This document shows positions 12,764 to 15,931 of a DNA stretch of 64,000 bases, piece after piece. This DNA is from Artemia franciscana (Eukaryota; Arthropoda; Branchiopoda; Anostraca; Artemiidae): the NCBI RefSeq assembly GCF_032884065.1, contig NC_088863.1, forward strand, positions 61,821,512 to 61,885,511. The letters run 5' to 3'. Position numbers and translations under genes: made by a program. Below the pieces are notes generated by a model. The model was not told the origin of the DNA, ran no database searches, and saw nothing but the letters and a program-made list of their open reading frames with translations. The stretch's first letter is position 1. The number at the start of each line of letters is the position of its first letter.

Positions 12764-14329
12764 TCTATATATATAAAAATAAGTTGTCTGTGGATGGATG
12801 GATGGATGGATGTGTGGATGGATGTGTCAGGTGACGTCACCTGAAAAAACTGGATTAGGTGACGTCAAAACTGAAAAAACTAAAAAAAGGCAAAAACTAC
12901 AAAAAAAACTAAAAACTAATAAAAAAATAAAAAAGCTAAAAAACTAAAAAAACTATAAAGGTAAAAACCAATAAAAAACTAAAAAAAAAACTGAAAAAAC
13001 TAAAAAAAGGCAAAAACTACAAAAAAAAACTAAAAACTAATAAAAAAAGTAAAAAAGCTAAAAAACTAAAAAAACTAAAAAAACTAAAAAAAGGTAAAAA
13101 ACTAAAAAAAATAAAAAATAAAAAAAAAATAAAAAAAAGGAAAAAACTGAAAAATAAGCTAAAATAAAGGTAAAAACCAATAAAAAACTAAAAAAAAAAA
13201 GGAAAAAACTAATAAATGACGACACTCAAAGAGAAAGCGACCAGGACAAAAAACTAAAAAAAAGGCAAAAACTACAAAAAAACTAAAAACTAATAAAAAA
13301 AATAAAAAAGCTAAAAAACTAAAAAAACTAAAAAAAGGTAAAAAACTAAAAAAACTAAAAACTAAAAAAAAACTAAAAAAGGTAAAAACTAAAAGAACTA
13401 AAAAAGAAAAAAATAAATGACGACACTCAAAGAGAAAGCGACCAGGACAAAAGGAATGTTCGATTAGCAATCAACAAAGCACCGGGACACAGGGAGTATA
13501 AATGACGACCAGGACACAAGTAAAAAAAAAAATTAACAAAACTAAAAAGAAGGTAAAAACTACAAAAAAACTAAAAAGAAAAAAAAACTAAAAACTAATA
13601 AAAAAACTAAAAAATCTAAAAATCTAAATAAACTAAAAAAGAAAAAAAAAGGAAAAAAATAAAGGAGAAAAACAAAACTAAAAAACGAATGTATATACAG
13701 ACCGGTACACCGGGATACAAATGACGACCGGGACACAGGGAATATAAATAACGACCGGGACACAGGGACACAACTACAACGGGGACACCGGGGGAAACAG
13801 GGGGATATAAATGACGACCGGGACAAAAAAACTAAAAAGAAATAAAAACTAAAAACTAATAAAAAAAACTAAAAAATCTAAAAATCTAAATAAGCTAAAA
13901 AAGAAAAAAAAAGGAAAAAAATAAAGGAGAAAAACAAAACTAAAAAACGAATGTATATACAGACCGGGACACCGGGATACAAATGATGACCGGGACCCGG
14001 GACACAGGGAATATAAATGACGACCGGGACACAGGGACACAACTACAACGGGGACACCGGGGGAAACAGGGGGATAACCTGACAATCTATTTATATGCAA
14101 AGACAATGGGACAGCAAAGAATGTTGTATATTCGCAAGTTTTACGTAGTTAAAACCATATATATATATATATATCTATATTCACAGGTGGGACATAGGGA
14201 CACAACTACAATGGCGCGTAACTATTATGGCGCGTAACGACTTACGCGCGCGGGGGGGCTTGGGGGGGGCGCGAAGCGCCCCCACCAACTAGGTGTTGGG
14301 GTGGCGCGAAGCGCCACCCCAACAGCTAG
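12764..14329 (+). mobile_element. Helitron derivative H6 (left arm of the palindrome)
   Basis: It starts with TC at 12764 and ends with the GTTGGGGTGGCGC hairpin plus CTAG at 14326-14329. Order: CRE-like 5' region with GATG repeats (12790-12835), A-rich array, helicase-C scrap (13455-13490), minisatellite and A-rich compound units, terminal stub at 14080-14155, short (TA)n, GC-rich end. Nearly identical to H7 in reverse. Confidence 0.85.
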
Positions 14330-14361
14330 TATATATATATATATATATATATATATATATA

Positions 14362-15931
14362 CTAGCTGTTGGGGTGGCGCTTCGCGCCACCCCAACACCT
14401 AGTTGGTGGGGGCGCTTCGCGCCCCCCCCAAGCCCCCCCGCGCGCGTAAGTCGTTACGCGCCATAATAGTTACGCGCCATTGTAGTTGTGTCCCTATGTC
14501 CCACCTGTGAATATAGATATATATATATATATATGGTTTTAACTACGTAAAACTTGCGAATATACAACATTCTTTGCTGTCCCATTGTCTTTGCATATAA
14601 ATAGATTGTCAGGTTATCCCCCTGTTTCCCCCGGTGTCCCCGTTGTAGTTGTGTCCCTGTGTCCCGGTCGTCATTTATATTCCCTGTGTCCCGGGTCCCG
14701 GTCATCATTTGTATCCCGGTGTCCCGGTCTGTATATACATTCGTTTTTTAGTTTTGTTTTTCTCCTTTATTTTTTTCCTTTTTTTTTCTTTTTTAGCTTA
14801 TTTAGATTTTTAGATTTTTTAGTTTTTTTTATTAGTTTTTAGTTTTTATTTCTTTTTAGTTTTTTTGTCCCGGTCGTCATTTATATCCCCCTGTTTCCCC
14901 CGGTGTCCCCGTTGTAGTTGTGTCCCTGTGTCCCGGTCGTTATTTATATTCCCTGTGTCCCGGTCGTCATTTGTATCCCGGTGTACCGGTCTGTATATAC
15001 ATTCGTTTTTTAGTTTTGTTTTTCTCCTTTATTTTTTTCCTTTTTTTTTCTTTTTTAGTTTATTTAGATTTTTAGATTTTTTAGTTTTTTTATTAGTTTT
15101 TAGTTTTTTTTTCTTTTTAGTTTTTTTGTAGTTTTTACCTTCTTTTTAGTTTTGTTAATTTTTTTTTTTACTTGTGTCCTGGTCGTCATTTATACTCCCT
15201 GTGTCCCGGTGCTTTGTTGATTGCTAATCGAACATTCCTTTTGTCCTGGTCGCTTTCTCTTTGAGTGTCGTCATTTATTTTTTTCTTTTTTAGTTCTTTT
15301 AGTTTTTACCTTTTTTAGTTTTTTTTTAGTTTTTAGTTTTTTTAGTTTTTTACCTTTTTTTAGTTTTTTTAGTTTTTTAGCTTTTTTATTTTTTTTATTA
15401 GTTTTTAGTTTTTTTGTAGTTTTTGCCTTTTTTTTTAGTTTTTTGTCCTGGTCGCTTTCTCTTTGAGTGTCGTCATTTATTAGTTTTTTCCCTTTTTTTT
15501 TTAGTTTTTTATTGGTTTTTACCTTTATTTTAGCTTATTTTTCAGTTTTTTCCTTTTTTTTTAGTTTTTTTTTTATTTTTTATTTTTTTTAGTTTTTTAC
15601 CTTTTTTTAGTTTTTTTAGTTTTTTTAGTTTTTTAGCTTTTTTACTTTTTTTATTAGTTTTTAGTTTTTTTTTGTAGTTTTTGCCTTTTTTTAGTTTTTT
15701 CAGTTTTTTTTTTAGTTTTTTATTGGTTTTTACCTTTATAGTTTTTTTAGTTTTTTAGCTTTTTTATTTTTTTTATTAGTTTTTAGTTTTTTTTGTAGTT
15801 TTTGCCTTTTTTTAGTTTTTTCAGTTTTGACGTCACCTAATCCAGTTTTTTCAGGTGACGTCACCTGACACATCCATCCACACATCCATCCACACATCCA
15901 CAGACAGACAACTTATTTTTATATATATAGA
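14362..15931 (-). mobile_element. Helitron derivative H7 (right arm of the palindrome)
   Basis: Mirror copy of H6, with CTAG at 14362-14365 and the 5' terminus at 15931. The A-rich array of H6 appears here as T-rich. The 3' ends of H6 and H7 face each other across TA repeats. Confidence 0.85.

Follow-up and report, generated by a model that had tools for sequence, protein, structure and literature searches.

A near-perfect 3.2-kb palindrome in the Artemia franciscana genome, very probably formed by separate insertions of two tail-to-tail Helitrons in one TA tract

Introduction

Among the systems closest to the locus described here, Helraiser inserts at AT and strongly favours sites that are AT-rich within about 20 bp, above all on the 3' side, according to the accessible part of its description (PMC4778049). 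Helentrons and DINE-1 elements are defined by features that include a T-T insertion site, and tandem Helitron clusters in bat and silkworm are attributed to bypass of the termination signal, both in the available portion of PMC4067079. A model proposed for Fusarium, as given in the accessible text of PMC5148889, has Helitrons inserting into one another, also in opposite orientation, and thereby producing composites with more than one 5' end. The abstract of PMC2267711 describes its maize Helitron pair as head-to-head, the text available as head-to-tail, and the members of that pair are dissimilar. No tail-to-tail Helitron pair was met in literature searches whose reach did not extend to most subscription journals, which is no proof of absence.

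Here we describe a palindrome made of such a pair, located in a 64-kb stretch of the Artemia franciscana genome (the window, C1:61821512-61885511). As in maize (PMC2267711), in Fusarium (PMC5148889) and in bat, silkworm and maize (PMC4067079), to the extent that these sources are accessible, Helitrons appear to have come to stand end to end through later insertion. The locus differs from the maize pair, as far as the accessible text of that report goes, in that all three possible arrangements are found by the hundreds in the genome and in that the two members, named D and E, are nearly identical. The preference for TA repeats is shared with MuTAnT, which differs in being a Mutator-like family and not a Helitron (PMC4486113, accessible part).

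Geometry of the palindrome

The earlier note on this DNA had reported a 3.2-kb palindrome at 12764-15931 built of two tail-to-tail Helitron derivatives, and its geometry is borne out. In the assembly the arms 12764-14345 and 14346-15931 mirror each other, and base-by-base extension outward confirms the axis at 14345/14346. The outer boundaries, 12764 and 15931, are the TC 5' ends of the two elements, and the 32-bp TA spacer is exactly (TA)16 (14330-14361, no strand), which separates the two CTAG ends and holds the axis. Helitron D occupies 12764-14329 on the plus strand and Helitron E, of the same subfamily and likewise with TC and CTAG ends, 14362-15931 on the minus strand.

The same extension gave exact complementarity over 1090 nt on each side of the axis, spanning 13256-15435, and a repeat finder returned ungapped arms of 1098 nt at an identity rounded to 100%. 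Alignment of the whole arms yielded 1576 matches, 6 mismatches and 4 gap columns; besides four one-base indels, the arms differ by a substitution at 13200 and by five more in a GATG/GTGT repeat near the 5' ends. Outward of both 5' ends there are TA repeats, after which the symmetry is gone, with 353 matches, 172 mismatches and 350 gap columns in an alignment of the 700 nt outside each 5' end. The 64-kb window contains no N bases.

Ends and class of the two elements

Both elements start with TCTATATATATAAAAATAAG, which has the TC of canonical Helitrons at its beginning, and finish in CTAG, in agreement with the canonical CTRR. The 3' terminal hairpin of D (14288-14329, plus strand) has a 14-bp stem and a 3-nt loop at 14294-14324, followed by GCTAG, and its main stem stops 5 nt short of the element's terminus; a hairpin near the 3' end is a feature of canonical Helitrons. 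In the predicted fold the terminal CTAG additionally pairs with ACTAG at 14288-14292. Folded as single-stranded DNA, the hairpin has a predicted energy of -26.6 kcal/mol (z -9.0), which was equalled by none of 200 shuffles. The hairpin of E (14362-14403, minus strand) is its mirror image by exact symmetry.

Each element is preceded by A at its TC and followed by T at its CTAG, the arrangement of an insertion between A and T. Canonical Helitrons make no target-site duplication, and a short one would be hidden within the TA repeat here. The flanks, A and T and not T-T, speak against the Helentron or DINE-1 type, to which subterminal inverted repeats also belong. Since no open frame of at least 150 aa is present in D or E, both are taken as non-autonomous. 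With their TC and CTAG ends, 3' hairpin, A-T insertion and AT-rich targets, a preference strongest on the 3' side, they resemble canonical non-autonomous Helitrons of the Helibat/Helraiser type, as described in the accessible part of PMC4778049. Compared with Helraiser in that source, they differ in that the main stem of D lies 5 nt from the element end instead of 11 nt, and in that the target is a TA repeat, often adjoining another Helitron.

A chain of related Helitrons

D and E sit in a chain of related elements, A(-), B(+), C(-), D(+), E(-) and F(-). Two junctions in the chain are head-to-head (near 7783 and 12745), two are tail-to-tail (near 9932 and 14345) and one is head-to-tail (15932-16073). 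Helitron A (6965-7781, minus strand) stands head-to-head with B at a distance of 3 bases, and B (7785-9923, plus strand) meets C tail-to-tail, with (TA)9 in between. B retains parts of a Helitron protein at 7953-9346, with Pif1 and Pif1_2B matches and a repeat-rich second frame whose weak STPR match (24.6 bits) falls below the Pfam cut-off of 27; the two B frames scanned gave no Rep domain match. Next to A, at 6542-6938, lie 1.8 copies of a 217-base repeat unit (92%). Elsewhere in the window, adjoining minus-strand frames of a non-LTR retrotransposon at 30298-33201 have reverse transcriptase and endonuclease matches.

In the related Helitron C (9942-12727, minus strand), 5' ends lie near 11830 and at about 12681; a further one (12727) belongs to a 46-base piece, 12682-12727, which is similar to the 5' terminus of a different element, present at locus L052. 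With its several 5' ends, C looks like a composite of nested insertions, and the extra ends agree with the self-insertion model of composite Helitrons in the accessible text of PMC5148889. To the left of D, (TA)18 (12728-12763, no strand) separates its 5' end from the neighbouring one in a head-to-head junction (C1:61834211-61834302). On the other side, a TA-rich tract (15932-16073, no strand) leads from the 5' end of E to the 3' end of F, in a head-to-tail junction. F is a related Helitron oriented as E (16074-17606, minus strand), where 17606 is an arbitrary cut and not its 5' limit.

Copies of the subfamily elsewhere in the genome

The D/E subfamily has a 29-base marker, of which the genome searched (1,270,528,402 bases, 6468 contigs) contains 3002 exact copies, split between the strands as 1441 and 1561. 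A similarity search of the genome with 336 bases of the element, by a tool that passes over very common words, gave no match. Thirty copies (L016-L045) were retrieved and compared with D by alignment in both orientations; they are the first on the window's own contig, a non-random choice, and all lie within its first 12.2 Mb, which puts them some 49 Mb or more away from D and E.

Among these 30 copies, D has one mismatch each to L028, L035 and L038, with 3, 4 and 5 gap events respectively, while E has 6 mismatches and 4 gap events to D. The nearest to E is L019 (1 mismatch, 4 gap events), followed by L022 and L044 (2 mismatches each; 7 and 4 gap events); for L037 and L032, both rearranged or cut, the counts against E are 0 and 1 mismatches and 14 and 8 gap events, respectively. 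Since the 4 gap events between D and E are matched by the 3, 4 and 5 between D and its relatives, it is the mismatches, not the gaps, that discriminate between independent insertion and copying. The last 1074 nt of D are matched without any difference by 3 of the 24 near-full-length copies, namely L028, L035 and L043. Judged from these alignments, the subfamily appears to be young, with near-identity between copies commonplace. A dimer made in one event, whose arms should be each other's closest relatives, was rejected against the 30 sampled copies, as both arms have nearer kin.

The inference of the earlier note that two independent insertions would not be so alike thus fails, given 3002 marker copies, nearer relatives elsewhere and identical 1074-nt cores. 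The near perfection of the palindrome would reflect a subfamily with almost no variation rather than the copying of one arm into the other. Gene conversion between the inverted arms, homogenising two older insertions, would fit the full identity toward the axis and the confinement of the differences to the outer third. However, copies elsewhere carry the same core, so that conversion is not needed, and D/E-like copies in general differ mainly at the 5' end; we consider it a highly improbable account of the locus.

Two 5' haplotypes and the relationship of D and E

Of the six substitutions that distinguish D from E, five define two haplotypes at the 5' end. The D haplotype occurs exactly in L028, L030, L031, L035 and L038 and the E haplotype exactly in L019, L022 and L044, while other young copies show additional combinations. 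Genome-wide, 49-base patterns of the two haplotypes match at 825 places for the D type and 1492 for the E type. The sixth substitution is confined to D or to E, as are three of the four indels, and the fourth indel, in D, is also present in L031.

Of 26 aligned rows, which comprised D, E and 24 near-full-length loci, 15 entered a tree; nine divergent or rearranged loci that do not belong to the young cluster were left out, as were L032 and L042, which are cut before the 5' end. In this tree, D groups with L028, L030, L031, L035 and L038 (support 97/91), and E groups, with weak support (74/95), with L019, L022, L036, L037 and L044. A constrained D+E clade was rejected for these 15 copies at a p-AU of 0.000174, a value from a run whose bootstrap, as the program notes, had not settled, and one that is over-optimistic because the five deciding substitutions fall within 11 bp of a repeat and are not independent changes. 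The sharing of haplotypes, as read from the alignment, holds regardless of that value.

These results bear on two ways in which the palindrome could have arisen from one element. In an inverted duplication, one Helitron would have been mirrored onto itself by a template switch or as a rolling-circle inverted dimer, as the 1090 nt of exact symmetry might suggest. Yet the 5' haplotypes of D and E differ and each is common elsewhere, both elements have nearer relatives at other loci, and the D+E clade is rejected; for this pair, inverted duplication appears to be largely refuted by the haplotypes. In a read foldback, or another palindromic read artefact carried into the assembly, one arm would likewise be duplicated. 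Foldbacks make up about 0.55-0.6% of Oxford Nanopore genomic reads according to the accessible part of PMC12870357, although the read type of this assembly may differ. Besides lacking the two different haplotypes, such an artefact would be at odds with a symmetry that stops at the Helitron 5' ends and gives way to unlike flanks, and a simple foldback seems very unlikely given two haplotypes. The three origins put forward in the earlier note (copying of one element, a rolling-circle inverted dimer and a read foldback) therefore find no support in the differing haplotypes, the nearer relatives and the rejected clade.

Junction classes in the genome

Junctions between Helitron ends were counted genome-wide by exact patterns with spacers of roughly 6-36 bases, and a backward-read control gave 0 for each class. 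Tail-to-tail junctions number 322, head-to-head 720 and head-to-tail 1549 (753+796). Tail-to-tail is the rarest of the three arrangements, which also speaks against inverted duplication. Under random orientation the head-to-tail count should equal 2 x sqrt(tail-to-tail x head-to-head), regardless of how efficiently each end is detected. As 1549 head-to-tail junctions were observed where 963 are expected (1.6x), it is the head-to-tail class, not the tail-to-tail class, that is in surplus. These counts include a few listed junctions that are paired and resemble segmental duplicates and a few head-to-tail matches whose spacers are not TA repeats, and the spacer limits differ slightly among the three classes, as the 5' ends vary in length. 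The surplus hints at tandem copying or local duplication.

The recurrence of the junction type bears as well on an assembly mis-join, in which two real Helitron copies from separate places would have been fused within the repeat. An identical core with a TA spacer is, in our judgement, difficult for assemblers, and runs of N are present at two of the fetched loci, L039 and L060. Against a mis-join stand a window free of N and a junction of the same type found 322 times, and we allow it only a small probability.

Likeness of the arms in tail-to-tail pairs

The first 1000 nt of each arm were compared in 37 of the 322 tail-to-tail pairs, namely every pair listed for contigs C1 and C2. The mean match between partners was 537.6 nt, as against 503.4 (sd 25.3) after random re-pairing, and was equalled by 465 of 5000 re-pairings. 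At least 980 of the 1000 positions match in two of the 37 pairs, D/E and L060, where 1.11 (sd 0.91) are expected and 1543 of 5000 re-pairings reach two; the same level is found in 78 of 2664 cross pairs. D/E is the most alike of the 37 and the extreme of the set, yet it is inside the range of chance pairing.

With at least 800 matches, a threshold picked after the data had been seen, there are 12 pairs as compared with 6.24 (sd 1.88) expected, a number reached by 15 of 5000 re-pairings. No excess over re-pairing is present in the 37 pairs at thresholds of 900 and 950, and nine of the 12 share 800-899 nt, with 14-38 mismatches. Such moderately alike pairs may be older inverted copies, or may reflect like subfamilies inserting near each other. 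Because of the excess at this level, our confidence in independent insertions was lowered very slightly, and it stays high. The class-wide likeness above chance and the first rank of D/E are the points in favour of inverted duplication; weighed with the haplotypes, they leave it a rather slim chance at this locus.

The second very similar pair, L060, has a (TA)14 spacer; the 5' haplotype of one of its arms is unlike those of both D and E, and the other arm enters N before the 5' end. It gave no sign of being a second copy of the D+E dimer. Arms share fewer than 900 of 1000 nt in 34 of the 37 pairs, which, together with the 322 junctions of this type, is further evidence against read foldback; we regard that origin as extremely improbable.

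Origin of the palindrome

Very probably, D and E are independent insertions of non-autonomous canonical Helitrons, belonging to two sublineages of one very young and abundant subfamily, in one TA tract. Each element would have arisen as a rolling-circle copy of a Helitron elsewhere and would have entered a single TA repeat between an A and a T, the location in TA being directly visible. Insertion probably took place beside an earlier member of the family, although the order of events is itself a reconstruction, and one insertion on each strand would result in the tail-to-tail arrangement. In the same manner, TA tracts beside earlier elements may be the sites at which later ones insert, whichever way they face, so that clustering would be driven by TA.

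The surroundings of other young copies are consistent with such targets. A TA tract of 10-146 nt follows CTAG in all 13 young copies with flanks, and one of 0-70 nt precedes TC. T stands after CTAG in all 13 of these other young copies and A before TC in 11; the remaining two, L029 and L043, have T before TC but an earlier TC, preceded by A, 3 bases upstream. Judged by eye, a recognisable Helitron end of some variant lies just beyond the tract on at least one side in 11 of the 13.

More tentatively, and with less than even confidence, we suggest that the family builds its own landing sites, the TA tracts at its ends attracting later copies in any orientation and giving rise to inverted and tandem chains, with the head-to-tail surplus resulting from tandem rolling-circle copying past the 3' end and the moderate likeness of tail-to-tail partners meaning that some other inverted pairs are copies. 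An inverted-copy process may thus operate elsewhere in the genome.

As two separate insertions of a very abundant family, the palindrome would have an essentially ordinary origin. The three junction classes provide a simple test for tandem copying that is unaffected by the detection efficiency of each type of end. A very young burst of Helitrons in TA repeats can give near-perfect multi-kilobase palindromes without any special copying event, and palindromes that come from such insertions can pass for assembly foldbacks.
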